A DNA stretch of 64,000 bases from the NCBI GenBank assembly GCA_030272155.1, contig CP126198.1:2046001-2110000 (forward strand), read 5' to 3'. How positions within the stretch are numbered: position 1 is the stretch's first letter; every line of letters starts with the position of its first letter. A program made the translations under genes and the position numbers. The notes beneath the pieces are model-generated. The model saw only the letters and a program-made list of their open reading frames with translations, was not told where the DNA came from and did not search any database. Below are positions 1 to 64,000 of this stretch, in pieces. Source of the stretch: Tetradesmus obliquus (lineage: Eukaryota; Chlorophyta; Chlorophyceae; Sphaeropleales; Scenedesmaceae).

Positions 1-1206
1 AATACGGAAGTGCCTAGCTCGACAAGAGCATGTAGGCATGCAGTATGCCTGTTGCATGCACGCTGACTAGGGCTGCCTGCTGGTGCTGCTGCTCACGTTC
101 CATGTAACAAACCCATCACCATCAGTTGTGATTCAAGTGTGAGCAGCAGACCTGAACAGTGCCCGTTCCCACAGCACTGCCTAGCTCGACAAGAGCATGC
201 GGGCTTGCAATGTGCAGATTGCATGCCTGCTGATCAGGGCTGATTGCTGATGCTGCTGCTCACGCCTCATGCAACTAAACCCATCACCATCATCGTGGCT
301 GCAAATGCGAGCAGCAGGCCTGACCCATGTCCTGCCAATAGTGCCCATTCCCCAGTATGCATCTCACAGCATCACACCGGCCCTTTGTCGACTCACCTGC
401 ATGCCTCTCAGGCAGCCGCTGCTCTTGTTGTAGTACATCGTGACAGCACTGATGCGGCCCTTGCCCACCATAGGCACCTGGTCCATGTACTTGCTCATGA
501 GCGTCTTGGTGCCAAAGTAACGCGACATGCTGGTCACTTTGTCGCTGCACGTCATCTCAGCCGCGCTGCAGTTGAGCGCCTCTGGAGCCTGATCCAGCTG
601 GAGAGGTGTGCTGACAGCAGCAGTACTGCTGTTTGTGCTGTGCGTGGCGCTTGTGTTGTTGGCCACCTGCTGTGTGGGCTGCTGCTGCGGCTGCTGCTGT
701 GGCGGCGCTGGCACCGTCTGCTGCTCAGGTGCCGGGGATGGCTGCTGCGGCACAGGCGACAGCTGAACCGCTGGGACTGGCTGCGGCGAGGGCTGCGGGG
801 ACGAGGGGGTTGCTGCTGCTGCTTGTTGCTGCTGCTGTGGTGGCTGCTGCACAACCGGCTGCGTCACTGCCGGTTGCTGCACCACTGGCTGCTGCACCAA
901 TGGCTGCTGTACTGCTGGCTGCTGTACCTCTGCCTGCTGTAGCTGCTGCTGCTGTTGCTGCTGCTGGAAAAACTGCTGCTCTTGTGCCAGCCGCTGCTGC
1001 TGCTGCAACAGCTCGTGCACAGACTCCTGCAGCTGCTGCTCCTCCTGCTCGTCTTGTGGACCCAGCGTATCATCAGCACCAGCAGCGGGCGGGAAACTTG
1101 CTGTTGTCACCCCACCGCCTGGCTGGCCAGGGGCAAGATCAGATGTGATCACTGGCAGCACAGGAGTGGGCGAAGAGGGTGCAAGAGGCTTGGCTGCCGC
1201 TGCATT

Positions 1207-1249
<43 letters not shown>

Positions 1250-3676
1250 TTGCTGCTGCTGCCAGGCAGAGCGGGCTTTGGGCTGGGGCTGGGAAGTGGG
1301 GTCGTGCCTGAGCTGGGCACCTGCTGCTGCTGCTGGGGTACTTGTGTGGTCCCTGTCGAGTTGCCAGGTGAGGCGCTGCCATTGCTGCTGCTGCCCGTGG
1401 TGTTGCTGCTGCCCGTGGTGTTGCTGCTGAGGCTGCTGCCGCTGGTGCTATTGCCTGGTGCCGGCAGCAGCTTCCCAGTGGCTGCATCAAGCAGTTCCTG
1501 CTGCTGCTGGGTGGTACTGCCGCTGCCGCTGTCTGCATAGCTTCCCATCTCCGGCTTCAGCACCTCTCCGCTGCTGCTGCTGCTGCCCTTGGCCCAATCC
1601 ACCATGCCAAAGAAGTCTGGCTGTGGTGAAGCTGGCGCTGCAGCAGGTGGCAGCAGCAGGGGTGAGCTAGGCGGCCCCAAAGGCCGGTCAACCATGCTGA
1701 AGTAGTCAGCACCAGCTGCTGCGGGGCTTGCAGGAGAGCCAGAGCTCACACCTCCTGCGCTGCCCCCAGCATCACCACCATTGCTGCTGCTGCTGCTGCT
1801 GTCATCCGGCAGCCACTCGGCAAACTGGCTGCCGCTCTTGCTGCTGCTGCTGCTGCTGCTGCCGCTGCTGTTGGCTGGTGAGCTGGGAGCCCTGCCTGGC
1901 GGTGCTGGTGCTGGCACTGGTGATGCAGCGGGCTTTGCAGCTGGCGCAGGTGCAGGGGCTGGTATTGCCGGTTTGGCAGCTGGCTGTGCAGGTGCTGCTG
2001 CAGGTGCTGGCGCCTTAGCAGGTGCTGCTGCCGGTGCTGGTGCAGGTGCAGGTGCAGGTATAGGTGCAGGCCACTTTACAGGCGCTGCTGCTGCTGCTGC
2101 TGGTGTTGCTGCAGGTGCAGTTGCTGGTGCTGGAGCGGGTGTGCTGCTCCTGCCAATGATAGGTGGGCCTGCAGGCGGTGGTGTTATGGTAATCACCGCT
2201 GCTGATGGCGCTGCAGGCGTGGCAGGTGCAGCTGGGATGCTGGGCCGTGTCAGCACCTGTGCTGGTGCCGGTGCAGTGCTGGGGTCAAACGGAGGATATG
2301 CGTTCTGCGCAAACTGCTTCGGGTTGTATTTGAAACTGCAGGTACAGCAGCAAGCACACGCGCCAGGAGCCGCAGGTCACAAGGAGCGTTCAATGTGTGA
2401 CTAGAGGTATGATATGGGGTGCCTCTGCTTGGTAAACAAGTGTACTGTTGTTGCCGCATGATTGTGCTCCAGCTTCTGATCACTTGCCAGCCAGCAGGCC
2501 ACTGTCCTGCACCGGTCCTGCAAGCTGTTTAGCGTGCCAAAGCTGCTGCCGCTGATGCAATTCTACTCTAAGTCTCATACTTCGCTTGCAGCTGTCCTCT
2601 GACAGCTGCTGCTACTGCTGTCCTGCAAGCCACTCATCCGCAGACATGCTGCCCAAAGGCTGCTGCTGCTGCTGCCGTTCCTGCAAGCCATGCGTCACCC
2701 ATACTGCTGAGTCCTGCTGAGATTCCAGCAGTTTGGCACAATGCTTGTTGCATAAATGCTGCTGCCACTGACCAGTGCCACTGTTGAACTGCTGTGCTTG
2801 GTTTCTGCTGCCGCAGTGTCTGGCAACCTGAACACGATCAGCTGCTGCTGCATCTATTTGGCAAACGCACACCTGCAAAGCTGTGCACTTACGTTTTATG
2901 ATACAGGTTTCCGGAATGGTCCACACGTATCACTGCCACTTGGACGAGGGATGCATCTGCAGCATCTGCACTGGCTGCTGCATCTGCTGCGTCTGCCACA
3001 TCTGTTGAATCTGTGGCATCAACAGCTGATACTGCAGTGAAAGCATCAGCTGAAGCTGCCACCTCCACTGCTGCTGTGCTCTCTTTTACGAACATAGGGG
3101 ACCTCGAGAGCGCCACCCTGCCTCTGTAAGTATACCCTTCCTTGTGGAACCTGTTGATGACAGCATGGCTGATGACAGCTGCTGAATCCCGAGGCACTCG
3201 CAGGTTGGATGCTGGATGCTGCGATGTGCCGCTGCTGCTTGCTCCTGCCTTGATGAATCTAAACTTCTCCCCTGCAATTCAAGTGTTATCAGGGCAGCAT
3301 CGTTTGCTTTCTTTACTGCTGTGCTGTCGCTGCTGCAGCACCACTTGCTGCTGGTGCTGTTTTTGCTGCTTGATGTTTGAACACTTCAATGCAACCCATG
3401 CATGCTGCAGAATAAGTTTTAGAAACTGTTTCCCTTGTGCCTGGCGAAGGCCAGTTATGAGGTGAACTGATCACCAGGCACTTTGAAACTGAAGCAGCTG
3501 CCCGCACCTGAGCAGTAGCCCGGCTTCGACACATCCACACCAGCGCAGCTGGCAAGGCATCGATTTGCGTACGTTCTACCATCTTTTCCACACACTGCTT
3601 CCACATCAGCAGAGCAGGCGCTGGAGCATACCGGTGCTGAGTTTGCCCGCCATACTGCCCCTGTCCGGGTGCCCAA
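1..3676 (-). CDS. Kazal-domain, Pro/Ala/Ser/Gln-rich protein (partial, open at left edge)
   Basis: Three exons join in phase: about 3676-3475, 3271-2893 and 2335-397; the last ends at a good GT donor, so the gene runs on past the left edge. The first exon carries a Kazal-type protease-inhibitor signature: spaced cysteines around VCGKDGRTYANRC followed by C-x(n)-GYC. Kazal domains act outside the cell or in the secretory pathway, so a cell-wall or secreted role is an inference. The middle exon has an Ala/Asp-rich repeat stretch. The 646-codon third exon is low complexity (poly-Ala-Pro, poly-Ser, poly-Gln) with two related motifs, ADYFSMVD and PDFFGMVD. It ends in a more ordered segment with cysteines (CSAAEMTCSD and a YYNKSSGCLRGMQ motif). 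No start codon was found; the 5' end lies to the right of 3676. The family of the C-terminal part is not recognised. Confidence 0.6.
13..348. repeat. 168-bp tandem duplication in the 3' part of the Kazal gene
   Basis: The 11-mer CCTAGCTCGAC recurs at 13 and 181, and sequence similarity continues through both units, including the GCTGCTGCTCACG and ACCCATCACCATCA segments. It lies just downstream (gene sense) of the donor at 396, that is in an intron or an unrecognised exon. Confidence 0.8.
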
Positions 3677-5572: not shown

Positions 5573-7775
5573 GCCAGCTCCACCCAAGGGGCATCCCCAA
5601 AGCAGCAGAGGGCAAGAAGCCAGTGCAGCAGCCACTAGGCAAGGATGGCAGGAAAGGCCTGTTTGGGCTGCTGCAGTGCACTGAGGCCGGCGGCGTGGAC
5701 TCCTGGATAGGCAACATGCTCATTGACCCAACCAAAGGCAAGCGCGCTGTCAGTGCGCCGACAGACGAGAAGCGCTCTGTAGGGCTGACCCAGCTGCTGG
5801 CGCAGACAGCACCAGGTGCGTGGTGGTAGCAGCAGCAGAAGCTGGAGCAGCCACAGCAGAGGTCGTGTATAGATACCCAGCAACAGGAGTTGTACAGAAC
5901 AGCAGCTGCTGCAGAAGCAGCAGTTCCAGCAGCACATGAAGATCCTTCAACTTCTTGCTGCACAACACTGCTCATGCACAGCTGTCACAACACAGTGGTC
6001 TCCACTGAAAGTGCATGTCACTAACTAACAGGATGGGGTGTCAACTATAAAGCGGCCTAAACCCTAAACCCTAAACCCTCCCTGAACCTGCGTCCACATT
6101 ACTGACCACTGCTCATGCTCATGTGCCACTGTGCCTGCATGTCTGTGTATGTGTGTCAAACAGGCAGTCCTGCGAGTGATGCATGGATTGGCAACATATC
6201 AATCGATCCTGCAAAGGGCAAAGGGCGCTGCCCAGACCCCTCCAGCCTGCGGGGCAGGCCAGACCTCTTTGCAGTGCTGCAGCAGCAGGTGCTGCAGACG
6301 CAGCCAGCAGGTGGCAGCGCTGGCAGCTTGAGTGCAGCAGCACAAGCTGATGCTTGGATTGGGAACAGGTGAGCTGGCAGGCCAGAAGCAGGCCAACAGC
6401 AGCAGCAGAAGCAGCCTAGCTTCTACTGCATGCGCGTCAGCACCTTGATTGAAGCGATTCCTTCAGCACAGATGAGCCAGTATACTACAGGCCGCTGAGG
6501 CAGCAATTCTGTCGTAAATTCTGCAGCAACAGCGCGGGCATCGCTGGGATGATGCGAACACCGTTCACCGCACATGCTGCTGCCATAGTGCTGCAAGGCA
6601 ACGCCCTCCTACCACTGCTGCTGCTGCTGCTACTGCTGCAGGCTGATCCAGCCCAACAAGGGCAAGAAGCCAGTGGAGCTGCCTGAGGGCTTCCAGGACC
6701 ACCTGCACGCAGCAACCTTCAAGGCGGGCCCGCCAATTGACGGCTGCTTCTCAGACCTGCCGCCAGTCGGCAAGCGCCCGCTGCAGCCGCCGTCTAATGC
6801 AGCTGGCTTCGTCACCGCCAAGCAGGCCATGCGGATCATGGTGCGAAGCTGTCGGCGTTGCACAGCTGAAGCCCTGGGGGCTGCATGCGTGCAGTTCCAA
6901 AATGTTGTTAGCTGCTAAGTCCGTAGCGCAGCAGAGGTGCAGCGCCAGCAGTATTCCTGCAAGTTCCTGCAATTTCCTGCAAGTTCCTGCAAGCAGAAGT
7001 GACGGTGGACGTGCTATGAAACCTGACTGCGTTCTGCAGGAGCCGCTGCCGCCTGGGGCTGTGCTGGGCATCGGCAAGCCCTCAGGCAAGGGCCTGGTGC
7101 CTGACCCGTACAACACCAGCAGCAAGCCGCAGCATGTGGACATCTACTCTGTCATGACGTACCAGCCGCTGACAGAGTATGAGCAGCAGAGGTGAGAAGG
7201 CGACAGTGTTTTGATTTTGATATTGTGTTCACTGTTGCTGGTTCAGCATCTGGTGCAGGCCGGGCTGGCATGCTGTGCTGCTGTGCACTGCAACAAGCTA
7301 TGTTTGCGTATTGACAGCCAGGCCAGCGGTTGGAGAGCACCTGGAGATGGGTCGGATGGTTGGCTGGCCTGGGTGAATAGCGGATGGTGCACACCCGAAA
7401 ACCAATGACATTGCGATGCCACGTTTGCCATACAGGTACCAGCATGCTTGGAATGACGCAGCAGCCCAGCACAAGAAGAAGCTGCTGCCAACTGCAGCAG
7501 CAGCAGGCAGCTCGCTGGCGAAGCAGCAGCAGGGGCAGCCGCCGGGCAGCATACGCTACATCCCGTATGGAGGCATCGCGCAGGAGAAGGGCATGACGAT
7601 GGATACGATCGTGGCCAACCGCAGCCAGGGCAGGCAGCTGAGCGGATCTGGAGCAGCAGGCAGCAGCAGCGGCATCATGGATGGCAGCATGGGTGGCAGT
7701 GGCCGCAGCAAGCAGCAGCAGAGCAGCATGGGCGGCTCAAAGCGGGGCTCCAAGGGAGGGGGCAAGCAGCGGTAG
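5573..7775 (+). CDS. protein with repeated WIGN motifs (5' end missing)
   Basis: Five exons fit in phase with consensus splice sites: 5573-5815, 6164-6368, 6642-6840, 7040-7191 and 7436-7775, ending at TAG. The recognised part is about 345 residues. It starts in the middle of a codon, so at least one exon lies upstream. Its hallmark is a repeated block of roughly 45-60 residues, seen three times: (S/A)WIGN, then I-D/Q-P-x-K-G-K, then a basic spacer. The C-terminus is Ser/Gly/Lys-rich. A central DPYNTS...YEQQRYQHAWND segment is probably ordered. The pattern (glycine-rich GLF near the start, DP-rich repeats) weakly recalls CFAP96/DUF4586 ciliary proteins, but I cannot confirm that. Function unknown. 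Confidence 0.7.
6056..6079 (+). repeat. interstitial telomeric repeat (CCCTAAA, about 3.4 units)
   Basis: CCTAAA, two full CCCTAAA units and CCCT occur without interruption inside the intron 5816-6163 of the WIGN-motif gene. This is the Arabidopsis-type telomere repeat, written on its C-rich strand. Confidence 0.95.
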
Positions 7776-8668
7776 CATTGCAGCACAGTGCCGCTCTGTT
7801 GATGATCTGCGGAAGTGCCAGCGGCCTGGATGTTGCTAGCACCTTCTAGGTGCTTTGCAGCACATCTGTGGCAATGGACGAAATCAAATGTTTGTGTATT
7901 TTCTTTTTCGTGATCTGGTCCAAGGCGGCTGGTGTTACAAAGTTACGGGGGCATGCTCTCACCAACGTGGCTCTAGATCCAGCCAGGAGTCAGTGTACGT
8001 GCTGCAGAGCCAGCGCCTTTGTTGCAGACAACTCTGTACACTGGTGCCATTTAAAAGCAAACTGCTGATGCCACACGTTAACCTGCTGTCACCCGTCAGA
8101 CCAGGGGAGCTACGCCCAGCACCGTTCTGGCGGTCAGGTTGCGTTGTTATGACCCCAACTTCAGGCATGCAAAACAATGCACAGCACAGCTGCGTATTGC
8201 ACACAGCCCTGGAACTCTGCAGTTGGAAACCCAATGTGATCGATCACCCAGGGACGGGGCCCTGATGCATACATACACTGTGCTTTGACATTCCAGCGAG
8301 AACTAGGTCACCAATTACCAATTACAGACATACAGCAATATGTTACTGTGCATAGCCAGTGCACTACTGGTACTTGCACACTGGCGCAAGTGCTGACTCC
8401 TGCCGTCCACCGTGGACAGTGTGGGCCCACACACTGAGACAGTGCGGGCCCACACACTGAGACAGTGCGGGCCCACACACAATTTAGGCTTGCCCTGAGC
8501 CGTGGTGCTGGCCCTGCTGCACAACAGACTTGATAGCCAGTAACCTCATAGGCAGCAAACGCAGCACAGCATCTCTCTTTATACAGCCGGCAGGAAGTAT
8601 GCGCAGCTGCCGTCCGTCAGACTCTGCAAGTGAAAGCAAGCAAAGCAGAATCAAAGCAGAAAAGGAGC
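7776..8668. other. intergenic region between convergent genes
   Basis: No coding exon is supported. It should hold the 3' UTRs of the WIGN-motif gene (+) and of the membrane-protein gene (-). A 23-bp tandem repeat lies at 8417-8480. Confidence 0.5.
8417..8480. repeat. 23-bp tandem repeat, 2.8 units
   Basis: The unit CAGTG(T/C)GGGCCCACACAC plus TGAGA occurs at 8417, 8440 and 8463 (last one partial). Each unit has a palindromic GTG(T/C)GGGCCCACAC core that could form a small hairpin. Confidence 0.9.
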
Positions 8669-11600
8669 TCAGGTGCAGCTTAATGCTTTTGCCACTGCTT
8701 GACAGCCAACTACCATTAACGCGCTCACTGGGGCCATTAGGAACTGTAACAGTGGCATTGCAGTTTGGCGACTGCAGTACATGTACTGCAGTACACTGCC
8801 AAACCTACAGTAGGCGGCAGCTGCCACCTCCACTCTGCTGTGCTGCAGCTGCAGGATGCCATCTACAAAGCATACAGCTCAGCCCAATGCTTCCGTGTTT
8901 TACTTTGCATCACCCTTTGCATCACTGCCCAAAACCCACCTGTGTGATGTTCATGTGGTAGCTTGACTGCAGCGCATCCTGCATGGCGCAGTAGCCCAGC
9001 TTGGCGGCACCCCAGCAGCTGTCGCTGGCTGCCTTGCCTGAGCAGGTGTCGCCAGCCTGCATGTGGTACGCGTAGCACTGGCGGCACTCTGCAGGATGGC
9101 AGCAGCAGGCAGCAGCAGGCAGCAGCAGCAGGCAGCAGCAGGCAGCAACAGGCAGCAGCAGGCAGCAGCGGGCAGCAGCATTGAAGCCAGGATGCATACT
9201 CCAGTGTGCACCGTGCAAAGCAGTCAGAGCTTCTAAAGGCAGGAGTGTATGCTGCTCAGAAGGAGTGAAGTAAGGTCTGGCTGTCACTCACCCAGGATGC
9301 CGTAGCGGTCCCTGTCGCTGATGTCGCGCGCAAACATGAGGAACCACAGAGCGTACGCCTCCACAGCCAGCACAGTGAAGAAGCACAGCAGCCCCACCAC
9401 AGCCATGCCAAAGAAGTACAGCCGGTCAGCAGCATACGGCCACAGGCTGGCGGCAGCGCGGTCGGCGCCAGACCTGCACGCAGCAGTACAGGCAGTACAG
9501 GCAGTACAGCCGGGTCAGTAGCAGCCGGTTAAAGCAGTACAGCTGGTTTGCAGCAGCCGGTACACCCGGTACATCAGCCTGCAGCAGCCGGTACAGCCGG
9601 TCAGCAGCATATGGCCACAGGCTGGCGACCGCACGGTCGGCGCCAGACCTGCGCGCAGCAGATCAGGCAGTACAGGCAGTACAGGCAGCACAGCCGGTCA
9701 GTAGCAGCCGGTTAGACCGAGTGCAACAAGCAGCAGCCGGTAGAAGCGGTACAGTCAGCACAGCCGGTCAGCGGCATGCGGCTACAGGCTGGTGGCCAGC
9801 GCCAGACCTGCACGCAGACCCGAAGGTAGAGGTGGGAAATACAGCGCTGGCCAAAGAGCTGTAATGGGTATACACCAGGCAACGACAGGTGATGGGGACA
9901 AAAGCCTGTGGCCCCACACCCGCAATGGACGGTTACACGTGTTTGCGTTTGCAAACACCTTCACGCCATGCTGAAGGTGGCAACAGTGCCAACACAGCAA
10001 CTCCATACCACAACAACATTTGCCAGACCAAGCAGCAAGCTTTCATGGCTCAGCTACAGCGTACAACAACAAAATGCTGCAAAAGGAAACCCACAAAAAC
10101 ATACCTGCGCCAGCGGACGAAGTGCAGCGAGAAGACATACTCCATGCAAAAGTTCCAGGCGTACAGCTTGCGCAGCGTCAGATCCTCCAGCCACTCCCAA
10201 AGGTCATGCAGCCAGCCGCAGCAGCCCGGCTGCTCCTCCTCCTCACCCACTGCAGATGCAGCAGCCTCCTCCTGCAGGCATGGAGCAGCAGCAGCAGCAG
10301 CAGCCCGCTAAGAGTACACAGCTCAAAGCTAGGTCTGCAGATGGTGTTGTGCACCTGTTGCTTCACCATTGACTTCAAACAAGAAAAGCATGCCGCCATG
10401 CTAGGATCAAGGACCACAAACCTGGACGCAGAACCCCACCTGGCCGGCCCTGTTGCGTGCCGTCTTGCGCAGCGCCAGCAGGTCAAAAAAGGCAGCCGGA
10501 CCGCAGCCGGTCTGCAGCAGCTCGCGCCCCGCCTCGTCCTGCTGCAGGCCGCTCATCTTGCGGAAGGCGCGCATGCGCTTGTAGGCCTTGCGCAGCACCG
10601 CCTTGAGCTCGTGCTCGGTCACCACGTCGCAGCGCGTGATGAGCTCCTGCGGTGCAGCGAGTTGGAATGGCAGGTTGGGACAGCAAGTGGGAACGGCAGC
10701 TTACATCCTCTACAGCGTGCAATTGCTCGGTCACGACGTCGCAGCGCGTGATGAGCTCCTGCGGTGTGTTTTTGCTGGGAAGGCAGGCCAGCTTAGCAAG
10801 TGCGCTGAAGCCATGTTGAATCATGTCAGCATGACTAACCCAAACCTGATCTGATGCACATGCAACTTCTCTGTTGCTAGCATGTGGTGGCAAATGCATG
10901 GATTGAGTGTCGCTGGGTCATACATTGCTGCTGCAATGCCTGCCAAATTAAACAGCGTGTGCATGGTGTGTCACCTTCGCGCTGGAGGGCCAGTTCTCAA
11001 TGAACTTGTTGAGGGGCACTAGCTGCTCCTCCATAGACACCAGGTTCAGCCTGCAGCGGCAGCAGCAGCAGCCGGTGTGGAGGCAGTGTCAGATGGTGAG
11101 CACCTGAGCGCCTAGTTCAATGTCAATGCAGCCACAGCACAGAGTCAACTGTGCAGCGCAGTTCTGACTGCTCCTTGGACCCCAACCAGTAACCTAAACA
11201 CGTATTGCAACACAAACAGAATCTCACAAAGAGACTGCAACTGCAGCAACTTATATCAACTGCCTCAGGCGCTCACCAGTACATGAACAGCAGCATGCCC
11301 CAACACCAACCTAATACCATGCACACCGTCCAATTGGCAGCAATGATGTCATAAAGGGCGCCGCAGCGGCCTCACCATTACATGAACAGCAGCAGGCTCT
11401 GTAGCAACAACTCAACACCCATGCAAAGAGTGCGATTGGCAGCAAGTTGCAAGGCATATGCAGTGCCGCGGCCTCACCAGTACATGAACAGCAGCAGGCT
11501 CTGCAGCACCATGATGGACCACTGCGGGAACACGCTGCTGGTCTTGTCGTCGCGCGTGAGCACGCCCGCGTACAGGCTGTACACGTTGATCAGCACAAAG

Positions 11601-12625
11601 CTGGCAGCAAAGTAGGCAAAGAACCACAGCCGGTAGAAGGGCGTGTTCTTCCAGTCAACAATGATCTGCAGAAGGAGAAGCAGCAGCAGTTGCAGCAAGG
11701 ACAGCACGTGGTGACTAGGAGCTGCTTGTCCTAAGCATGGTATGATGCTGCATGCACAGCACACAGGCAGTAGGCTTGGCCGTACGTGCAGTACTGCTGT
11801 GCTTTTCAAAACGCTGCAGCCGCCCCACCTGCAGCGACATCAGCCAGTGGTACATGAAGCGCTGGCCATGACCGTACTGCTGCACAGCCACACATTGCCA
11901 CACAACCCGTTTCCTGTGCTACTTGTGCAGCCAACTCACCTGCAGCGACATCAGCCGGTAGTACATGCAGCACTGTCATGGCAGTACTGCTGCACAGCAA
12001 CACATTGCCATATAACCCGCCTCCAGTGCTACTAGTACAGCCGCCCCACCTGCAGCGACATCAGCCGGTAGTACATGAAGCGCCGCACCGCCATCTCGTT
12101 GTTGCTGAGGATGACCAGCAGCAGCGTGATCATTGGGTAGGACAGGAACAGCGTGAACATGAGCGCCTGGAAGGTGGACACCTGGCCCGACATGCTCCAG
12201 TAGCGCTGCAGGGCGTGCTGAGTCACCATCAGCGCCACCTGCAGCCGCCAGCAGAAGCAGCAGCCAGCGTGGTGATGTATCTCAGAAACCTGCTGTGGCT
12301 TATATAGGGCAGGACTGCTCACATTGGATTATCAATTTGCGATTAGGGCGGCACGCTGGTTGGCTGCCTGCAACTGCATTGGACAAATCAAGCACTTGAA
12401 AGTGGTTGTGCAGCGCAACACTCGCAGCTGCATCAGTCGTGCGTGCAAGGTAGCATGGTTACTTCAATAACAGCAGCAGCAGCCCCCACCATGATGGTGA
12501 TGACGTACTGGAAGACCTTGAAGGCCCCCGAAAGCATGGTGGTGGCGTACGTGAAGAACACCGGCGGCTGGAAAGGCAGAGGGCTCAGCTCTTCCTTGCT
12601 GTACACCTGCGCAGCCGCAGCAGCC

Positions 12626-12662
<37 letters not shown>

Positions 12663-21900: not shown

Positions 21901-22802
21901 ATGTGCTGCATTTCAAGCTCAGCCACATGCCAGGCCGGGCACATCAAGCAATACAGGCTGCAAACAGACCTGCAACACAGCCTCACTTGTTCACTGTGAA
22001 CTTCGGCAGCTGCCCACTGCCCATGTGCTGCACCTCAAGCTCAGCCAAGTGCCAGGCTGGGCACACCAAGCAGAACAGGCTGCAAACAGACCTGCAACAC
22101 AGCCTCACTTGTTCACGATGAACTTCAGCAGCTGCCCTGTCCCCATGTGCTGCACTTCAAGCTCAGCCACATGCCAGGCAGGGCCCAGCCCGCTGCCTTC
22201 ATGCCCCAGCACCACGTGGCTCATCGCACCCACGTCAGCTCCAGACACAACAAACTCGTCCCGCCGCCTGCAGAGCAGCGAGCCAGACATTGCCCGACCG
22301 TTGTGTTAGGGCCTATAAATATGGTTGGTTGAAAAACACGGAGTAAACCGCCATATGCGCCTCGCCGCACTGCCGTACCCGCGCCAATCGCCCTGATGCA
22401 TTACGTAGACCCAGCCCCTGCTGCTGTTGGGCAGCCGGCTGTAGACAGAGCATGCAGTAGCGAACATCTCACAGCTGAAACACAACATCTGTGAGCACAA
22501 AGCTGCTGTTTCAACCCTCTTATGCTAGATATACTCACCCCCGTTCAAAGCAGTTGTGGCCCTGTTTGGCCAGCGCCTTCTGCCCAGTGTCCCCCTGGTT
22601 GCCGTGGATGACGATGTGTACATTGGCATCAGTGCCAGCTCCCCGCACATTGGCGGTGGTGACAGCAACACGATACTTGCACTGCAGGCTTGCAGGATCA
22701 AAGCTGCGTGCTGCCTTGAGCGTCCTGCGGGTGGCGCCATCGCCCTGGCTGCTGTCTAGCCACTGGTTGCAAGGGAAGTACCACACCTGCACAGCAGCAG
22801 CC

Positions 22803-49341: not shown

Positions 49342-52300
49342 GCGCGAGGCCAGCAGCGCAACTGTTGCACATGCAGGCGATGCAGTCATGTCTGACAGTG
49401 AAGAGGCCGCTGCTGCGCTGCTGGCGCAAGTGGCGCTGCTGCGCCAGGATACTGCTTACATAGAGGAGCTGAGCAGGGCAGTAGATATGGACATAGATGA
49501 GGCAGATGGCTGGCAGCAGCAGCAACAGCAGACAGGGGACCTTTCTGAGCTGCCTGCCACACAGCTGTCCACCCTACATGGCGGCTTCGGCAGCAGCAGC
49601 ACCAGCTCCACAGCGCAGCAGCAGCAGCAGCAGCAGCTGGTGCTTGTGCTGGACACAAACGTGCTGCTGGATGCGCGGGGGCTGGCGCTGCTGCAGCAAC
49701 TGGAGGGCTTGCAGGAAAGCTGCTGCGTGTGGCTGCAGCTGCTGCTGCTGCTGCCGTGGACAGTGCTGGTGGAGCTGGATCGGCTCAAGTCAAGTAAGTG
49801 GGCCTGACCATGAAGCAGATTGTGTAAAGCTGCAATGGCACCTGGCGTGGAGTTGAGCACCACTGTCTACTGCTGCTGCACTGTGCATGCCTGCTGCTGT
49901 GCCCTCATTCTTCGGCCAACTGAGCATGCCAGTTGCTTGCCTGGCAGCATGTTGCAAGCTTGTGCTGTTGGCATGCATGCTGCTTGCAAGCACAGGCGAC
50001 GCCCAGTGCTCTCACTTGCAGGACATAGCAGCCAACTTGTCCGTGGCTTGTTCGAGCTGCTGCTGTGTTTAAGCACTCGGAAGCTGTTGTTCCTGCAGGT
50101 TCGATAGCCTGATGCTGCTGCATGCACGTTGTCTGACTGAAGGCTGGTGATGTGTGTGACGCTGCTGGCAACTACAGGGCACGACGCATCTGGTCATGAC
50201 GGCCTGTCAGTTGCTGGGCAGGCTCGTGCTGCCCTGAGGCACCTGCAGGCAGCCATGGCACAGAGCAGCAGGCACAGCCACATGTACAGAGCCCAGAGCA
50301 TACAGGTGGGCAGAATGGTAGCTACAGTAGGAGCTGTTAAAATCTATGCTGGTGGCAGCGACTGCAGCTGCACGCATGTACAAACATACGCCGTTGCGTA
50401 TGTGTGCTGTCTCTGCAGTTGAGACTGTGCAGGCCAAGACAAACGAGAACAACCTTGCGGAGGGATCCTGATGTATGGTATGCTCCAGCAACTTCCTGTT
50501 GTTGATTCACTCCATCAACGACAATACTGCCACGCTGTCGGTCAAACCTGTCATGTCTTTCCTGCAACTGCAACAGGAGTTCAGGGATGCTGCGCGGCAG
50601 CACAGCCTGGGAGAAGGAGACAGGGACCTAGTGGCAGACGACCGCATACTGCAGTGCGCCATGCACGCTCAGCAGCAGCAGCAGCAGCAGGCGCGTGGAA
50701 ATGCTGCAGCTGGGCTTGTGCTGCTTACAAACGACTTGGTGCTGCAGCTTAAGGTGAGCAGTGCTGCTGCACGCTGCACTACAGCCAGCGAAGTAATAGC
50801 GCAAGGTGCCAGCACATCATTCTGCTGCTGCTGCGGCTGCTGCTTGCTGCTGCGGCTGCTGCCGAAAAGCATCTTGCCAGAGCCGAGGGGAACAGCACTG
50901 CTTAGTCACTATATATGCTTGCAACGTCAAGAGCCTGGGTGTCGGTGGGCTGGTGATGATTATGCTCTGCAGTCGAATACTGTCACATTACTAAAGTTGA
51001 GTGTGCTACCAGCGCACAACCTCTATGTAGCAGCAGCAACAGCAGGGGCAGCGAGCGACGTGGTGTGAGTGCTTCCTGTCTGCTACTTTACTTGCATGCA
51101 GGCGAAGGCCAACTCAGTCCCAACCGCCAGCCTAAAGCAGCTAACAGGGGTGCCTGCAGCACAGCAGCCGCAGCAGCAGCAGCAGGTGCACACTGTTCTG
51201 TCCAAGCTGATGCAGGTGGCCGGCATGAACCCTACACACAGCAGCTCTGCTCTGGCAAGCCCTGCAGCCGCCACCGCATCCACCGCCGCCGCCGCAGCAG
51301 CAGCAGCAGCACAGCAGCCAGGCCTCCACCAGCTTGACGAGCAGCTGCTGCAGCAGCAGCAGCAGCAGCAGCAGGGAAGCCAATCCGCTGCCGACATTGC
51401 TGCTGCTGCGCTGGGCCTCATCCGGCGGCTGCGGCGGGAGCTTGCTGACAAGGTTGAGGCTGTCCTGCGGGAGGAGTTTGAGGAGGTGTGGCTGGATGTG
51501 GTGTGCAGGAAGCCGCCTTGGAGTGACGGTGACTTCCTGGCTGTGCTGCACAAGCACTGGCGCTCCGCAATGCAGGTGAAGCGGGCGGGGTCAATTGGTG
51601 GTTTAATACAGTGTGAATGTACAGGTCAGGTTTTGTGTGTGTTGAGCGGTGAGTGGTGGCGTGGCGGACGGGTGTTCTTTTATGTTGTGTGTTGTTTGGG
51701 TAGGGCATTGCAGGTTGAGTTTGTGGAGGTGTGGCTGGATGTGGTGTGCAGGAGGCCACCTTGGAGTGATGGCGACTTCCTGGCTGTGCTGCACAAGCAC
51801 TGGCGCTCCGCGCTGCAGGTGAGACGCGATGCAGGTGAGCTGTGATGCCGCCCAACGTGCTGCGGCCCTGCAAAGCAAAGTGGCTGTGTTGCACACTACA
51901 GTGGGGATGTTGTGCAGTTGCATTTTGGGCTGTAGTGGCAATGGTGGTGTGGGAGCAGGGCACTGGGTGATGTGCTGGCAGAGTAGGGCTAGATGGCGAG
52001 GAGGGGTCTTGTTTCGCGTTCGGTCATCGATTGAGTGATGCATAGGTCGCTAGCTGTGTGTGCAATATATGGTGACATGCTGTGTTGGGGTTGGAGTGCA
52101 GCGTGAAGCATGGCAAGGATGCGCAGGAGGAACGTGGCGAGGAGCAGCAGCCATTGGCTGACTGCATTGTGCAGGCAGCTGCCGTAGAGGCCTGCCAAAG
52201 CTCGCGGCTGGTGCGTTGTCAACCTCGCTTCATCGCCTTAGTGCAAGTCACTATCTTTTGCGTGCCACCACCTAACTCAACAAACTTGTGCTAACACACT

Positions 52301-55765: not shown

Positions 55766-56430
55766 TCAAGCAGATGCCTGCAGCACTGCCCGGCTGCCGA
55801 CCGCTGCAGCCGCCCGCTGCCCTTCCTGCTCTCGCAGCATTGCCTCAGCGGCACGCCTGCCTGGCCTCAGCCATAGCCAACCAAGCAATGTCTTGCTGGT
55901 GACCTGCAGCAGCTGCTTGCTGTCAGCAACCAGAACACACTCGCCAAAATGGTGCCGCATGCATGTTTGCATGCTGTAACAAAGTCTTGCTGTTGCGCAC
56001 AAGCGCACTGGCACACTCAGAGTGTCTCAAGCATTCGCCTGCACCACTGCCCGGCTGCCGCCTGCAGCAGCAGCCCCCGCCCCTCCCTGCTCCTGCAACA
56101 GTGCCTCGGCTGCCCTCCTGCCTGACCTCAGCGCAGCATCGAAGGTGGCACTGTCCCTGTGGTCCCCTGCTACGTACAGCCCAGCACCCACCCAACCCTC
56201 ATCTACTACCGCACTGCTGCCATCGCCTGGGACACTCTCGCCATGCGACAAACCTCACCCTCACACATAACACCACTAGTCGGGTACTGCCTCTCACACG
56301 AGCCTCACGCGGATGCCTGTACCACTGCCCGGCTGCCACCAGCAGCAGCCCCCGCCCCTCCCTGCTCCTGCAGTAGAGCCTCAGCAGCCCTCCTGCCTGA
56401 CCTCAGCGCAGCATCAAATGTGGCACTGTC
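55766..56430. repeat. three tandem copies of the FAD-oxidoreductase terminal exon end (about 260-280 bp)
   Basis: Minus-strand stops at 56305, 56027 and 55766 each end a copy of GRRAAEALLQEQGG... SRAVVQA(S/N)A. The second copy keeps GAGLYVAGDHRDSATFDAAL intact. The third is more diverged. The downstream flank (CTGCCATCG, CTCGCCATGC, AACCTCACCCTCAC-type sequence) is repeated too, so the unit includes 3' flanking DNA. Confidence 0.95.
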
Positions 56431-57946
56431 CCTATGGTCACCAGCCACATACAGCCCAGCCCCTAGTGCCACTGGCCTGCTGAAGTTAGTGGGAGGATTT
56501 TGGTTGGGCTGTGCAAAGGGGATGCGGTAGGTGCGCAGGTGGCTCCAGGTAGAGACCTGCTGCTGGCCAAACCATGCTGACAGCTCCTGCTTGACTGCAT
56601 CGATCAGCTGCTGCTCGGAGAGGTCTGGCTGCGTGCCGATGGTGGAGACTGACACCAGTGCCTGCAGGAGATGCAGCCCAGGGTGCAGGTCAGGGCAAGG
56701 TTTGCGCGTCAATGTCAGCAGCGTGTTGCCAGTCAAGCCACGCTGACACTACAGAAGGTGGCAAGCGCGTGAGCACAAGCAGCACATGCAAAGTCCGATG
56801 TATGATCTACAAATCACTGCCTTTTTCTGAGAAGCAGCAGTGGTCCACAAGGCTGCTGCCGTAGTGTTGCTAAATTCATCGAAGGACAATGCCACAAAAT
56901 AAAAAGTTCCATTGGCACTCAATCCCCGCACCTGGCCCGGTGGCGTTTACCTTTGCGCCGTGGATGGTATGTAGCAGTTGTCAGCCAGGCTGCTGACACA
57001 GCATGCCACAACATGAAACAAGTGACAAACCACGTGACACGGCACTCCAATCCCGCACCTACAGACCTCTCTCACCTGCCCTGCTGGCGCGTAGCTCGGA
57101 GCCACAGTGGATGGGAAGCAGCAGTTGTTGACCAGGCCGCTGACACAGCATGCCACATAACAATAGAAGTGACAAAATAACACGTTAAAACGACAGCAGC
57201 AGGCCTCACCTGCCCTGCTGGCGCGTAGCTTGGTGCCACCGTGGATGGGAAGCAGCAGTTGTTGACCAGGCCGCTGCCGGTACCATTGAGGTACAGAACA
57301 TTGTCTGGTGACGGCGGCTGGGGTGCCTTGAAGTACAGGTTGCATGTGCCCACGCCAGCCTCCGTCTTGGAGGGAGCAGCCTGTTTGTTTGCAAAAGATA
57401 CGTAGCAGCAGAGCAGCGGGAACGGATTAATGCCAGATGCAGGGAACAAGCACAAGCTGCTTGCAGCTGTAGATGCCTGGAAGCGACGGATGGAATGAAT
57501 GATTTAATGAATGAGCTACGCGTCGTGTAGCGACGGGTTGTGTCTAGTGCCTACGATCCTGGAGCTTGTGTATGCAAGCTGCAAGTCGTTGGACCGGATA
57601 CACACAGAACAGAGAGGAACAGGCAGCTATGCACGACATCTCCAGCCAGCTGCCTCCCATGCTTAGGCTCGTAGCCAGATGTACTACAAGCACTCAACAC
57701 AGCCGACAGCAGCACTGCAATGCACCCCACTCACATCCAGTGCCCCTCCCAGCAGCCGTGCTGCTTCAGGCCCTTCAACCGCCACCACCACGCCCTTGGA
57801 GGCTGTGATGCTGCTGCCATCAGCCAGCTGCACGCGCGCAGGGCTGCCGCCAGCTGCACCAAACACCTGCTGCACGCGCACATCTGCGCAGAGGTAGTGG
57901 GCAGGCAGGGCGGCCAGCGGGCAGGCAGGCAGGCAAGCAAGGAATA

Positions 57947-58001
<55 letters not shown>

Positions 58002-60451
58002 CATGCAGGCGGGCGGGCATGCAGGCAGGCGGGCAGGCAGGCAGGTAATGAGCAACGCATAAGCACAGGCAGAGGACCAGCAAGAGACGAGAGCATTATG
58101 CATGCTTGCGCGTTGTGTGGATAGGCATGATTGCAGTGGGCAAGCGCGCTGCCGTGGCGCACCTGTGTAGATGCTGTCGGCAGGCAGCCGTGCCTCCAGC
58201 TGCTGCGCCATGGCGCCTATGCCAGCAGCAGGCAGGCAATTCTGCCCTGTTGCCAGCATGCGCATCACAAACTCAAACAGCCTGCGAAGCATCAACATTA
58301 CATTACATTACATTACATTACATTACATTACATTACATTACATTACAACATTAGAAGCGGCAGAACAGGTTTGCAGGATTGCTGCAACAATGCGTGAGGT
58401 GGCTCAGCCTGCACTTGTCAGGACTCTGCTACGCCAGCAGTTGATGGACGCTGGCATGAAGTGCAGAAGCGCACTCATGTGTGACGCAGATGCGCGACTA
58501 TTTCGGAGGGTGCTACCTGCCGCAAGTGTTGCCGAAGATGAGCTGGTTGCAATCCGACATGCAGGGCTTTTCAACATCTCTGCTTCTTTATCGAGCTGGC
58601 TGAGGTGGTTCACTATCATCTGCCACATGTGCCCACATGTGCCATTCATATCGGTGCTGTGTCCTTGCTGTGCCACTGCTGCTTGCTGACTGGTCTACTA
58701 TGCTCACAACGCATCGCTTGCTTACCTGCTGCTGGTGGTCAGCTGCGTGTTGAAGAAAATGCCGCCCAGGAAAGGCCTGAAGAAGCGGTCAATGATGGCC
58801 TCTGAAAAGCCCTCGGCCTGCACGCGTTTCAAAAGTGCCGTAACAGTCTAATTCTGCAGCCTGCTGGCATCTAAACACACCGTGTGAATGCGAGGCAGCA
58901 GGCATGGGCAAGGGGCCACAACTGGCAGCAAAAGCACACAACATGGCATACTAGCTGACAACACAAGCACTGCTGCTGCTGCTGCTGCTGACTCAAGGGC
59001 ATACAGTCTCCAACAAAGCTGTCTGGCACTGCTCCAGGCTGCCTATCACACCCTATCCCTTACAGCCTTACAGCCTCACCCTGAGCCGTTCCAGGATCGT
59101 AGTCTCTGGCTTTTCAAAGATGGCATCCAGCGGGCCTATCAGTGTCTTGAGCCTGAACAGGCCCACATTGACTTTGTCAACCACGCTGCCGACGGGGTTG
59201 GTCAGTGACAGCAGCCCATCAGCAAAGTGACGCAGCGGGTCTGCAACGGTGTGGAACTGGCCGTTGTACCACACGCGGGCACCTGCAAGGCGCAGCAGCA
59301 CAGCGTCAACGTAACATCATGACAACTGACACCTGATGTTACAAGCAGTCGTATGCGTACACCCTTGACAACTGCGCGGCGATGCGGGTTGGGCACAAAT
59401 GCACAGTACACTTTGAAGCCGGTTGCACCAGACATGCAGTGCCTGCTTGTAGCAGCAGTCCACACCACGCCAGGCTTAGGCCGAAAAGTTATGACGAGGC
59501 AGTACAGAGTAGTTCAAATCTGTCTTGCTACATTGCAAGTGCAACCCTGTCTGCACTTCAGTGTCACACTGGCTGACACCCCACCTCATGCCATGCAGCA
59601 AACCCTGGTACTTGCAGTGCTGTTGCCATACACTGCTGTTGGCAAGGCAGCTGACATGCAGTTTTACACTACTAGCCTGTCGTGTCAACACAACATGCGC
59701 AGTGCTGCCAGCTGGCTGCCAGTTACGAGCCATTGGCACCTGTGCAGCATGCTGCTGCTTTATAAAGAACCATCTGCACCATTCACATCACCCACTACAG
59801 CATCCCATACTCCCTGCTGTAACAACATGGCACATTTTGTGCCTGGCTGCGCAAGCAAACTATCAGGCCCGCCCACCTGCGTAGAAGGGCTGCAGCTGCA
59901 GCGCTTCAAACTTCGCTGCCTGCTGCTGCTGCTGCAGATTGCTAAGCACTACCCGGTACCGAATGCATCCCCCAGACGCGCACTCCCATGTGCAGAGCAG
60001 CTGCTGTCAAATGTTGAGCAACTCAGCCAGTTGAACTGCCAGGCACCCACCCACCTGCATAGAAGGGCTGCAGCTGCAGCGCCTCAAAGTCCAGGGTTTC
60101 CCGCGCCTCTGGGTAGCCAGTCAGAAAGATCTGAAAGCCCCGATCCAGCAAAAACCCGTCCACTACATCTGTGCGGGTACGCCCACCAACACCATCGCCT
60201 GCCTCCAGGATTACTGGTGCTAGCCCTCGCTTGCGCAGCACTGCTGCTGCGTTCAGCCCTGCCAAGCCAGCACCAACCACCACTACGTCTGCCTCTGATG
60301 GCAGCTGCTTGCTAGATGCTGCAGCAGCACATGGGGTGAGGCGCACCCTGCGTGTGGTGAAGGCCCTGCTGCAGCAGCGCTGGGTACTGCTGGATGCTAG
60401 GCCGGCCCTGCTGGCACGTGAATGCCCAGCTACGCTCGTGCTAGACAACAT
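56305..60451 (-). CDS. FAD-dependent amine-oxidase/phytoene-desaturase-like oxidoreductase, probably plastidial
   Basis: Seven exons chain in phase from ATG 60451 to TGA 56305: 60451-60055, 59282-59080, 58817-58726, 58281-58163, 57883-57735, 57380-57210 and 56661-56305 (495 aa, typical for the family). Residues 1-50 are Ser/Arg/Ala-rich, like a chloroplast transit peptide. An ADP-binding Rossmann motif follows (VVVVGAGLAGLNAA, then E32-type ILEAGDGVGGRT), and then LDRGFQIFLTGYPEA. The C-terminus has the FAD-binding GAGLYVAGDHRDSATFDAAL and a helix AALRSGRRAAEALL. The family includes carotenoid desaturases/isomerases and amine oxidases. The FLLDRGFQ variant is seen in uncharacterised plant and cyanobacterial members, so the substrate is unknown. 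Introns hold a CATTA microsatellite, a GGCA repeat and three exon-edge duplications. Confidence 0.88.
56948..57280. repeat. three tandem copies of an FAD-oxidoreductase exon 3' edge (about 130 bp)
   Basis: Minus-strand copies encode SGLVNNCCFPSTVAPSYAPA near 57270 (in exon 57380-57210) and GLVNNCCFPSTVAPSYAP near 57140. A diverged LADNCYIPST copy lies near 57000. Each of the first two is followed by a GTGAG-type donor. Confidence 0.95.
57920..58048. repeat. (GGCA)n tetranucleotide repeat
   Basis: A long GGCA/CAGG tract with a few interruptions fills much of the intron between exons 58281-58163 and 57883-57735 of the FAD-oxidoreductase gene. Confidence 0.95.
58296..58346. repeat. (CATTA)10 pentanucleotide microsatellite
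   Basis: Ten uninterrupted CATTA units lie just upstream (gene sense) of the acceptor of exon 58281-58163. A short relative, four TAATG units on the plus strand, occurs near 13523. Confidence 0.97.
59860..60075. repeat. tandem copy of the FAD-oxidoreductase exon 1 3' edge (about 180 bp)
   Basis: Minus-strand FEALQLQPFYAG followed by a GTGGGC donor occurs at the end of exon 1 (60055) and again near 59880 in intron 1. The upstream GTTGAGCAACTC-type flank is not clearly shared. Confidence 0.9.
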
Positions 60452-61510: not shown

Positions 61511-61542
<32 letters not shown>

Positions 61543-61603
61543 CCAGGCAGCCAAGGAGCCCAGCAGCAAGAAGAAGAGCAAAAAGAAGGATAAGGCAAGC
61601 TAG
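60800..61603 (+). CDS. Lys/Ala-rich basic protein, intronless
   Basis: A single exon runs from ATG 60800 to TAG 61603 (267 aa). The first 75 residues look ordered: MQRTFLRIRPLKRRSCTAEE, then a helix AAAVVLEQKARERELRPGLG and a hydrophobic LQLCWLVLQGHP segment. The rest alternates poly-Ala with lysine clusters (GGKKRKRQQQ, KSTKKSKHKK, KKDKKSKRKSK, ending KKKSKKKDKAS). Such clusters act as nuclear or nucleolar localisation signals in many proteins, so a nucleolar role is plausible but not shown. It is the only intronless gene in the window. No domain was recognised. Confidence 0.75.
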
Positions 61604-63454
61604 GGCAGGCTAGCAGCAGGCACTTAGGCAATGCTGCATCTGCATGGGATGCTGCTGCCACCAGCACACACCAAGTTGTCTTGTGACATACAGCAACAGG
61701 TTGAGCTGCTGCAACAGTCGCTAGGCCTGCCAGGTTGGCTGTGGCTGGCCTGCTGGGCTGGCTGCAGCAATTGCCAAGCCTGTGGTCGGCTGTAGCAGTT
61801 GAAACGCTTGCGGGGTTGGCTGTAGCAGTTGCCAGGGCTGCCAGAATCGTCACCGGCCAGCCAGCCAACCAGCCAGCCAGCTTGTGGAGTTTTGCTCAAA
61901 CCTGCATATGCATGTTGCGTATTAATCACAATGCTGCATAGCCGCTGCCCTACTGGGCCTGGCACAGGGCTGCCTGGTGCTTGCCAGCTGACAGCTGTTT
62001 GGTTGCGGTTGTGTTGGGCAGGGCCTCCACGCGTACACTTCAGGCATGGCGTGATTAGCGGCGTGCCTTTGGCGTCCACTGCATATGAGGCAGGCGTGTT
62101 AACGGCATGCACACGTCGCTGCTGGGGCTCTTTTGACGTTGCGTTAACGGTTAAGGGGGAAGGATGGTATTAGAGTTCCTGAGCCATTAGAAGCCTGCTG
62201 GCTGTATAGTTTGTTACCACATGTTATACTATATGGATACAACCCTATCAATGCTGAGCCATAGTTTGAAGGTGGGACTCGTACCGTGGACTCACTGGAG
62301 TCAGTGCCTTGCAGCTGTTGCCAGCAGTACCACTGTCAAACGTCGACAGCTGCTGTAGTAGTCTGAGACGCCTTGGGGCTTCAGCCAACAGTCGCAACAT
62401 CTATAAAAGCATAATATATAACTGATAAAGGCTTTCAAGCGTTCCATGTGCTGCCTGTGATGCTCACCGAGAGGCGTTCCGTCATCACAGGCCTCCTGTC
62501 GCGCCAAAAATTACCGAATTGCACGCCAGCCGACAAATAGGTCATTTAGCTTTGAAGGATTACTGTGCTGAAGTGCTGCTCGATCCTATTTGGCCAGAGT
62601 TCCAGGCCGTGTTTCATGCACTGGGATCGGATAGAGCAAGTCTGGCCGAATAGGATGGCCTCAGCGTCTCAGAGTAACTTAGTACACCCCCAATGATTAC
62701 TACTCTGCGATTGCAGGCCGAACGGTAACTTTTTGACGCCGCTGCCCATGTCTACTGTCATGCATGTAGCAGGTTTCAGCCAGCCTGACCAGTGCCTAGA
62801 CCCCGGTCCCATTGACCTTTGGCGCCGAATAGGCATCAATACATATGTTATCTTTGATTATATATGTGCAGTTGCCGCGCTTGTGCCAGGGATTGTGTTT
62901 CCCAGCACCCCAGTTAATACCATCTTTCCCCATCTTGGCAGGCTGCACTGGGTGACTCCTCAACTGCAGTGTGCGCCACACAGCGGCTGCCTTACAAACG
63001 GTAACCATGTGGAGCCTTGTCGTGTTACATGTGATGAGGTTGACTCTTTCAGACCACCGCCACTCAGCAGCTGGCTGTCACAAACACCCAATGCAAGCAT
63101 GCATACATAGGCAGATTCTTTTGTAAGGGCAACCTTGGGACAGGCTGTGGCAAGCACAGATTTGGCAGTCTGCTGTACGTCACGTACGGCGTATAGACCA
63201 GCTGTAATACAAGTACAGCTATGTGAAAAGGCAGTTTTAGGCATGGTAAATGCACAACTGCGCGCGTTCAAGCAATGCTGGACCAGCAGCTCCCTGCCCA
63301 AAGGCTCCTGGCGCTCCAAATGGGCTATGTGTTCCTGGAGCCGTACAAATTCGTCCCTTTACATCACCAACACTACGATCACGCTTGCTTGAATCCTTGG
63401 CCAGCAATCTGCGCCCAGCACCTGCTCAGCCCCTCTACTGCTGCTGCTGCTGCC
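61604..63454. other. intergenic region
   Basis: No supported exon in about 1.85 kb. Short imperfect repeats of GGCTGTAGCAGTTG occur at 61788-61835 and GCCAGCCAACCAGCCAGC-type repeats at 61855-61880. A segment at 63246-63330 resembles 47908-47990. Confidence 0.5.
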
Positions 63455-64000
63455 GCTGCCTCATTCCTCTTTGGCGCCCGCTGCTGCCGATTCCAGTCCT
63501 GGCGGCAGCCGCTGAGCGGGCTTGACTGCTGCTGCCCTTTGGTGGAAACTGCTGCCTTGCTTGACCTGCTAGAAAACAACAGCTGCTGCTGAGCCAGCAC
63601 AGCCACCTTCGCTGCTGCGTCACTCCTCCTTTGCGCCCGCTGCTGCTGCTTTGAGCCCTGGCTGCAGCCGCCGTACCGGCTTCGCTGCTGCTGCCTCTGC
63701 CGGCTTGAGCAGCAGCCTGTACAGCAGGCCCCCAAGCATCGCCCCAACAAAGGGTGCCAGCCAGTAGCTGCCAGCTGTGGCCCTTGATTAAAATTGCTGC
63801 CTTGCTTCCAAACTTCCAAACTAAGGTACAACAGCTGCTGTTAGCCGGCCCAGCGGCCTCTGCTGCCGCTGCTGCATCACTCCTCCTTGGTGCCAACTGC
63901 TGCTGCTTTGAGCCCTGGCGGCAGCCGCCGCACCGGTTTCGCTGCTGCTGCCTCTGCCGGTTTGAGCAGCAGCCTGTACAGCAGCCCTCCAAGCATCGCC
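63455..64000. repeat. three tandem copies of an aquaporin terminal exon end
   Basis: Minus-strand stop codons at 63877, 63620 and 63461 each end a copy of KPAEAAAKPVRRLPPGLKAA... AKEE. The middle copy extends furthest into the conserved part (SYWLAPFVGAMLGGLLYRLL). Spacings are 257 and 159 bp. A CTTCC/AAACTTCC flank is partly shared. Confidence 0.93.
63877..64000 (-). CDS. probable aquaporin (MIP family), C-terminal end only
   Basis: The frame enters from the right edge and ends at TGA 63877: AMLGGLLYRLLLKPAEAAAK, then a basic tail ending GTKEE. The tandem copy at 63757-63620 shows what precedes it: SYWLAPFVGAMLGGLLYRLL. This is the pattern of the last membrane span of major intrinsic proteins (YW-x-x-P-x-x-GA-x-x-x-x-L-x-Y). 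Family membership is likely, but the NPA motifs lie outside the window. The tail is Lys/Ala-rich and cytosolic. Confidence 0.6.
   Translation of the reverse strand, partial: AMLGGLLYRLLLKPAEAAAAKPVRRLPPGLKAAAVGTKEE

Follow-up and report, generated by a model that had tools for sequence, protein, structure and literature searches.

Why should the edge of a single exon, together with its splice site, be repeated in tandem within the adjoining intron? The question is raised by a stretch of 64,000 nt of the Tetradesmus obliquus genome (CP126198.1, positions 2,046,001–2,110,000; hereafter the window), in which an earlier note made from the sequence had listed 16 arrays of this kind. We analysed these arrays, their counterparts elsewhere in the genome and the evidence for how they arose and whether the extra edges are used.

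Sequences and gene models

The genome has a size of 104.66 Mb in 17 contigs. The DNA analysed consisted of the window and 20 loci of 10 kb (264 kb in total) and five smaller loci. Seventeen of the 10-kb loci (L011–L027) were fixed blind at round coordinates, L009 and L010 flank the window, and L008 was picked for repeated hydrogenase matches; L028–L032 were picked for their Pfam match pattern. Repeats were detected by ungapped self-comparison with low-complexity sequence masked, at offsets of 40–700 in the window and 40–1500 in the 264 kb.

Gene models were obtained with a home-made, unsupervised two-strand HMM trained on the same loci that were analysed. The model converged on a donor CAG/GTGAG and an acceptor TTGCAG/G, with a median exon of 117 bp and a median intron of 281 bp, and it recovered the hydrogenase gene HydA1. 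Extra copies were often called exons by the HMM, and the real edges were therefore curated: 199 of 216 candidate exons were kept and the other 17 were dropped as being copies themselves. L024, which has repeats of another kind, was excluded from the curated edge, spacer-homology and unique-change counts. Partial copies were also counted by Pfam homology for chaperonin, kinesin (150 of 155 matches taken in) and tRNA-synthetase; sugar-transporter matches (9 rows) were too few and stayed outside this count.

Direct repeats at exon edges

Self-comparison of the 264 kb gave 439 direct-repeat hits with a score of at least 20, whereas five block-shuffled versions averaged 3.6; the 439 include satellites (as in L020) and minisatellites, and filtering of the latter left 80 arrays. 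All 16 coordinates listed earlier for the window proved to be local direct repeats, with 77–100% identity over the best ungapped stretch. Thirteen of them overlap an HMM splice junction, as had been proposed for all; those at 16565 and 40522 lie in intron only, and that at 63465 covers exon and flank. The arrays of the window, a further repeat and the array-free HydA1 gene are as follows.

4–322, minus strand: two-copy direct repeat with a spacing of 167, absent from the earlier list; overlaps a model exon edge
9416–9820, minus strand: extra acceptor-side copies at 9648 and 9807, upstream in sense; the real exon starts at 9473
10612–10766, minus strand: extra acceptor-side copy at 10758; the real exon starts at 10646
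11272–11511, minus strand: extra donor-side copies at 11376 and 11277, downstream in sense; the real exon ends at 11478
11815–12081, minus strand: three copies with a spacing of about 110; overlaps a model exon edge
13089–13272, minus strand: two copies with a spacing of 162, ungapped core just 22 bp; overlaps a model exon edge
16565–16800, minus strand: two copies with a spacing of 152; intron only in the model
17074–17324, minus strand: extra acceptor-side copy at 17319, with AG lost; the real exon starts at 17121
21860–22187, minus strand: extra donor-side copies at 21987 and 21865 in the PLAT-domain gene (Pfam PLAT); the real exon ends at 22109
23822–24169, minus strand: three similar DNA units forming an acceptor-side array in the PLAT-domain gene; on curation, the real exon starts at 23874 and one extra copy lies at 23986
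26791–26981, minus strand: extra donor-side copy at 26821 in the PLAT-domain gene; the real exon ends at 26937
40522–40922, plus strand: four copies with spacings of 94, 108 and 125 in an RRM/RS-type gene (Pfam RRM_1); intron only in the model
43181–45294, minus strand: HydA1 hydrogenase exons, no array found
51466–51822, plus strand: extra donor-side copy ending at 51818; the real exon ends at 51575
55766–56463, minus strand: three similar units, placed on the donor side by the model, with an extra copy at 56065; the real exon ends at 56340
56958–57276, minus strand: extra donor-side copy at 57076 and third similar unit at about 56960 in an amine-oxidase-like gene (Pfam Amino_oxidase); the real exon ends at 57210
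59868–60088, minus strand: extra donor-side copy at 59877 in the amine-oxidase-like gene; the real exon ends at 60055
63465–64000, minus strand: three similar units with spacings of 159 and 257; exon and flank in the model

Two to four copies at spacings of 90–280 bp had been described, which agrees with the window; in other genes an edge has up to six extra copies. Copying of a terminal exon with its stop codon, also claimed, was not confirmed as such. Under the stricter rules used for curation, 11 of 100 tested edges in the window have extra copies, 14 copies in total. Assembly error was rejected as an unlikely source of the repeats, most copies diverging by several percent or more.

Frequency among genes

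Over the window and the loci together, extra copies were found in the adjoining intron at 74 of 337 curated edges (37 acceptors and 37 donors), amounting to 133 copies. The suggestion that the habit is genome-wide was borne out at the blind-picked loci, where 22 of 150 edges (15 loci) have extra copies, with significant differences between loci (permutation P 0.0096). In the full set, 18 of 21 edges in L028, which carries CCT1, and 12 of 21 in L008, which carries a HydA-like gene, have copies, compared with 11 of 100 in the window and none in eight loci. HydA1 in the window gave no array in the self-comparison while its HydA-like relative in L008 is saturated; a related gene can thus be free of arrays.

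Segments taken from exon edges matched the adjoining intron in 38 of 316 cases, deeper exon segments in 3 of 245 and edge-adjoining intron segments in 11 of 213. When exon and intron segments were compared with the introns of other sequences, the rate was 0.0 at a score of 40 for all six query types. Pfam homology, which is independent of the gene models, gave 28 partial copies among the 293 matches counted in 54 gene clusters: 12 were acceptor-side copies lying upstream and 11 donor-side copies lying downstream, with one on the wrong side, two whole-exon copies and two others. Among the matches counted, partial copies occurred in 5 of 11 chaperonin, 2 of 35 kinesin and 3 of 8 tRNA-synthetase clusters, the clearest case being a kinesin exon with six acceptor-side copies. 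We conclude that the duplication of exon edges with their splice sites is real and occurs genome-wide.

Structure of the duplicated unit

The copies are direct at 74 of the 337 edges and inverted at one. Consecutive spacings range from 88 to 449 bp (median 132, mostly 100–250), with none of the 133 below 88 bp, and the copied part of the exon is about 50–65 bp long (medians 52 and 64.5). The spacers are related within arrays, with a median local score of 43 against 20 between genes, and 26 of 33 arrays with several spacers contain a spacer pair above the 95% null. Since spacers within an array are homologous, the duplicated unit consists of part of the exon, the splice site and part of the intron. 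In 16 exons that have copies at either end, the acceptor-side and donor-side breaks often fall near each other in mid-exon. Introns with copies have a median length of 644.5 bp (n = 62), compared with 342 bp for introns without copies (n = 209).

Several other accounts of the unit were considered and rejected. Selection on unit length for reading frame was dismissed as consecutive spacings fall evenly into the three classes modulo 3 (46, 41 and 46 of 133); the multiples of three in the kinesin array derive from its CTG tract. Short templated insertions do not fit homologous spacers and the near absence of inverted copies, and insertion of an introner or transposon does not fit the finding that no element is common to different genes.

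Position relative to exon edges and the intron-gain model

Arrays hit exon edges more often than after random relocation (46 edge arrays against 29.4 expected, and 11 intron-only arrays against 23.8), and with the window and L008 left out there were still 23 edge arrays against 14.2 expected (P 0.003). The relocation test is biased, because the intron part of an array becomes unrecognisable sooner than its exon part: when detection relied on the intron part alone, 12 of the 46 edge arrays survived, compared with 10 of the 11 intron arrays. Under a placement null, 31% of random units contain a single edge and 51% fall in intron only; for exon sequence to be placed in an intron with the exon left whole, the unit must hold exactly one edge. 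The earlier argument that ordinary tandem duplication should not track exon edges is therefore not supported, as geometry and the faster decay of intron sequence explain much of the pattern and leave no clear excess. The edge excess may be largely a product of tolerance and decay. Of the two mechanisms proposed at the time, selection that tolerates copies hidden in introns fits these data, and a splice-linked mechanism, though conceivable, is not needed.

The same note had suggested that the arrays may show the AGGT model of intron gain in action. AGGT occurred at none of the 124 exon breaks (0.00), compared with 0.04 at exon positions drawn at random, and just 2 of the 80 arrays are exonic on both sides, the copies sitting in introns beside a complete exon. 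The data show existing introns growing, and intron gain through AGGT is not supported. The region that forms a 465-bp exon in HydA1 is interrupted by four introns in the HydA-like gene, which is compatible with either gain or loss.

Splice sites in use

Joining the outermost splice sites of CCT1 in L028 produced 469 residues that are found verbatim in P0240, the annotated CCT1 protein, in which no extra copy is included; a CCT1 protein of Tetradesmus obliquus is named OEZ86_010546. P0241 is the CCT1 protein with one residue changed and comes from contigs of at most 1853 bp. Residues 79–547 of CCT1 span 8.8 kb in L028, far more than these contigs, so P0241 was presumably derived from spliced RNA. 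For the HydA-like gene, the protein obtained from the outermost sites aligned with the homologue P0001 over 364 residues (76%) with one gap position. The identity of the CCT1 protein and the homology of the HydA-like protein support the conclusion that the outermost pair, that is the last acceptor and the first donor, is normally spliced.

One exception was found. P0242, an annotated CCT1 isoform, equals P0240 plus nine residues repeating the end of exon 8, and it was obtained verbatim once the 27 nt at L028:7891–7917, a piece of an extra donor-side copy, were added. This piece is followed by GT and, unlike the three other matching copies, preceded by AG. Inner ends generally showed no complementary splice site above background: a donor was present at the inner end of 4% of acceptor-side copies against 8.5% in controls, and an acceptor at that of 34% of donor-side copies against 31%, which counts against use of most copies. 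Complete alternative half-exons that could be combined were rejected on the same ground. Among the copies, L028:7891–7917 is one exception in having both an acceptor and a donor.

Possible constraint on the extra copies

The AG or GT is kept in 115 of the 133 extra copies and lost in 18. Extra donors match the real donor at frequencies of.85,.86,.76,.62,.86 and.50 from +1 to +6 and at about.3 from position +14 onwards, and of the 51 that have GT, 49 have G at +5. Median splice-site scores of extra and real sites are 5.8 and 7.0 for acceptors, and 6.8 and 7.1 for donors.

Among 163 changes unique to one extra copy, 76 were synonymous (bootstrap interval 0.34–0.52), against 0.22 expected from their own spectrum and 0.29 under cruder weights, with the caveat that a change scored as unique to an old copy may have arisen on the real exon and so mimic constraint. 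The corresponding count for real edges was 38 of 44. By position in the array, synonymous changes made up 27 of 56 in the nearest, 18 of 33 in the middle and 31 of 74 in the farthest copies. The share was 0.60 in L018, 0.53 in L028 and 0.50 in L008; there was no excess in the window (0.17, n = 6), L021 (0.21), L023 (0.25) or L010 (0.25). In-frame stops, present in 5 of 133 extra copies, were not clearly rarer than chance among the 163 unique changes (2 against 4.1 expected). Between two extra copies, the exon side showed 12% mismatches and 0.64 gaps per 40 bp and the intron side 23% and 3.85, figures that serve as support only, since some arrays with false inner edges (several in L008, for example) are included. 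Judged from these sequence statistics, the extra copies seem partly constrained in some genes, and unevenly so between genes.

Origin and maintenance of the arrays

The best explanation, which we regard as probable, is border-crossing tandem duplication that is tolerated, with the extra edges used now and then and under weak selection. Stretches of about 90–250 bp across one splice site are duplicated in direct tandem, as seen in the arrays, so that the copy in the intron possesses one exon end but lacks the other, upstream for acceptor-side and downstream for donor-side copies. With the outermost splice pair normally used, such a duplication would just lengthen the intron and could be tolerated. 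Arrays expand further, up to the saturation observed in some genes. The extra edges would remain visible to the spliceosome and be used occasionally, and this use may place weak selection on the splice motif and the reading frame; a single base change creating an AG could finally turn a copy into an in-frame micro-exon, as the annotated CCT1 isoform suggests. A further-reaching possibility, on which we are doubtful, is that the extra edges form a genome-wide reserve of live secondary splice sites in hundreds of genes, kept by selection. Ends with only a donor or only an acceptor might then bind the splicing machinery and aid exon definition or serve low-level use, and single base changes might yield in-frame micro-exons, with exon birth on view at several stages. 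In a human gene described in the available part of PMC5933811, U1 snRNP bound downstream of the natural 5′ splice site can strengthen exon definition; by analogy, extra donors could do likewise.

The most serious competitor of tolerated duplication with occasional use is a purely neutral process, in which duplications across exon borders occur at random and leave dead copies, and in which the history of the real exon and detection bias produce the apparent constraint. Placement geometry and the detectability of intron parts cover much of the edge tracking, in-frame stops (5/133) and lost splice dinucleotides (18/133) do exist, the farthest copies reach just 42% synonymous changes (31/74), and several loci have no synonymous excess. 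The nearest and middle copies, however, are the least exposed to confusion with changes on the real exon, and there 45 of 89 unique changes are synonymous; the exon side is also less diverged between extra copies than the intron side (12% against 23% mismatches), and +5 is kept in extra donors while +4 and +6 drift. We consider neutrality rather unlikely. Unequal recombination between diverged haplotypes, which would bring foreign exon ends next to one another and by which most differences would predate the duplication and be already under coding constraint, would jointly explain the bias towards third codon positions, the marked divergence of the introns and the scarcity of indels in exon parts. 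It appears improbable, as HydA1 and CCT1 proteins annotated or assembled from T. obliquus agree with those of this genome at about 99–100% identity, while between extra copies and real edges there are 69 nonsynonymous and 96 synonymous changes over 1776 sites. Very little weight is left for a duplication process linked to splicing (through R-loops, microhomology of splice sites or CAG/CTG slippage) that would place copies preferentially at exon edges. The edge arrays in excess of random placement, the absence of spacings below 88 bp among 133 and the CTG tract forming the intron part of each unit of the kinesin array are in keeping with it, as is a slight rise of CTG (0.52 against 0.41) and CTGC (0.29 against 0.18) near breaks relative to random exon positions. 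Yet the excess largely vanishes when detection relies on intron parts alone, and break motifs are enriched mildly (CAG 0.39 against 0.35), all these motif figures being given without a significance test.

Comparison with known systems

Exon-like copies adjoining an exon are also a property of tandem duplicated mutually exclusive exons. The algal copies differ from these and from cassette exons in being one-sided, with no second splice site above background. They are direct, adjoin their source and comprise exon and intron sequence around one splice site, as expected of border-crossing duplications. A similar event is the border duplication in a potato RdRp gene, which, according to the available part of PMC4974935, resembles an acceptor-side copy in comprising an intron end and the start of the next exon, splice signals included. 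That event, as presented there, is a single case with a new intron and an inserted exonic piece, whereas the alga has one to six one-sided copies per edge in the existing introns of many genes, and its outermost splice sites appear to be used.

AGGT intron gain (Rogers 1989, as outlined in PMC4974935) likewise multiplies splice-site sequence by tandem duplication. Compared with that outline, the algal unit crosses an existing splice site, AGGT was not seen at the breaks and none of the intron positions is shown to be new. Internal gene duplications (Gao and Lynch 2009, in the same partial account in PMC4974935) are also within-gene events; those include whole introns or exon segments, while the algal copies are single exon ends inside introns. 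Introners, as far as covered by the part of PMC9860276 available, are comparable as a genome-wide process reshaping introns, whereas the algal copies match their own exon only and their spacers are unrelated between genes. Among the papers brought up by searches of the open PubMed Central library, which lacks most subscription papers, none presents exon-edge arrays in algae in its title or the opening of its abstract. The phenomenon appears to be a genome-wide form of border-crossing tandem duplication, by which introns become longer and splice sites more numerous; a new micro-exon is annotated in one case.

Significance for the alga

The mean intron of T. obliquus is 462 bp, against 230–302 bp in four other green algae, according to the available part of PMC5966456. 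The extra edges may mislead gene prediction, as the HMM used here took many of them for exons. If the spliceosome ignores the extra edges, with several near-identical donors or acceptors packed into a few hundred nucleotides, the alga provides a large set of natural tests of exon definition; if the extra edges are used at times, they show a route from partial exon duplication to new micro-exons. Should the extra edges indeed be a live reserve, they would be a natural experiment in which the spliceosome chooses the complete exon among near-identical partial ones. Either way, the duplications are a measurable cause of intron growth, copy-bearing introns being about twice as long as the others.

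Geometry of the exon-edge arrays

Across all curated arrays, none of the 133 consecutive spacings was below 88 bp; shorter repeats do exist in introns and between genes. In exons of the CCT1 locus (L028), the HydA-like locus (L008) and a smaller locus picked by its Pfam match pattern (L031), where an exon had copies of both kinds, the acceptor-side set and the donor-side set frequently broke close to a shared position in the middle of the exon. Satellite-like repeats were found in L020, a 10-kb locus set beforehand at round coordinates; in contrast to the exon-edge arrays, these were nearly identical across the entire unit.

L020:115-1600 and 2641-3306: satellite-like units roughly 312 and 338 bp long, lying between genes

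Other features of the window were as follows.

12032-34063, minus strand: long gene model that holds three exon-edge arrays and numerous PLAT/LH2-like stretches
63620-63739 and 63877-63996, minus strand: tandem pair of nearly identical 39-residue open segments, near the window end

A single 465-bp HydA1 exon (window 43969-44433) corresponds to a region with four introns in the HydA-like gene (L008:2923-6416), and either intron gain or intron loss is possible.

CCT1 in T. obliquus and Scenedesmus

An annotated micro-exon lies within one of the extra copies of the donor side of CCT1 exon 8.

L028:7891-7917 (G000:C16:4180291-4180317): cassette exon, 27 nt

Four copies matched at this piece, and only that at L028:7891-7917 had an AG immediately upstream. 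The telomere-like strings TTTAGGG, AGGGTTT and CCCTAAA were also present between copies in CCT1 introns (L028:900-1500 and 7370-8200).

In the CCT1 protein of Scenedesmus sp. NREL 46B-D3 (P0244), an exon end is substituted by an aberrant stretch, and the counterpart exon of T. obliquus bears donor-side copies. The aberrant stretch hints that exon-edge arrays also occur in Scenedesmus sp. NREL 46B-D3 and mislead gene prediction.
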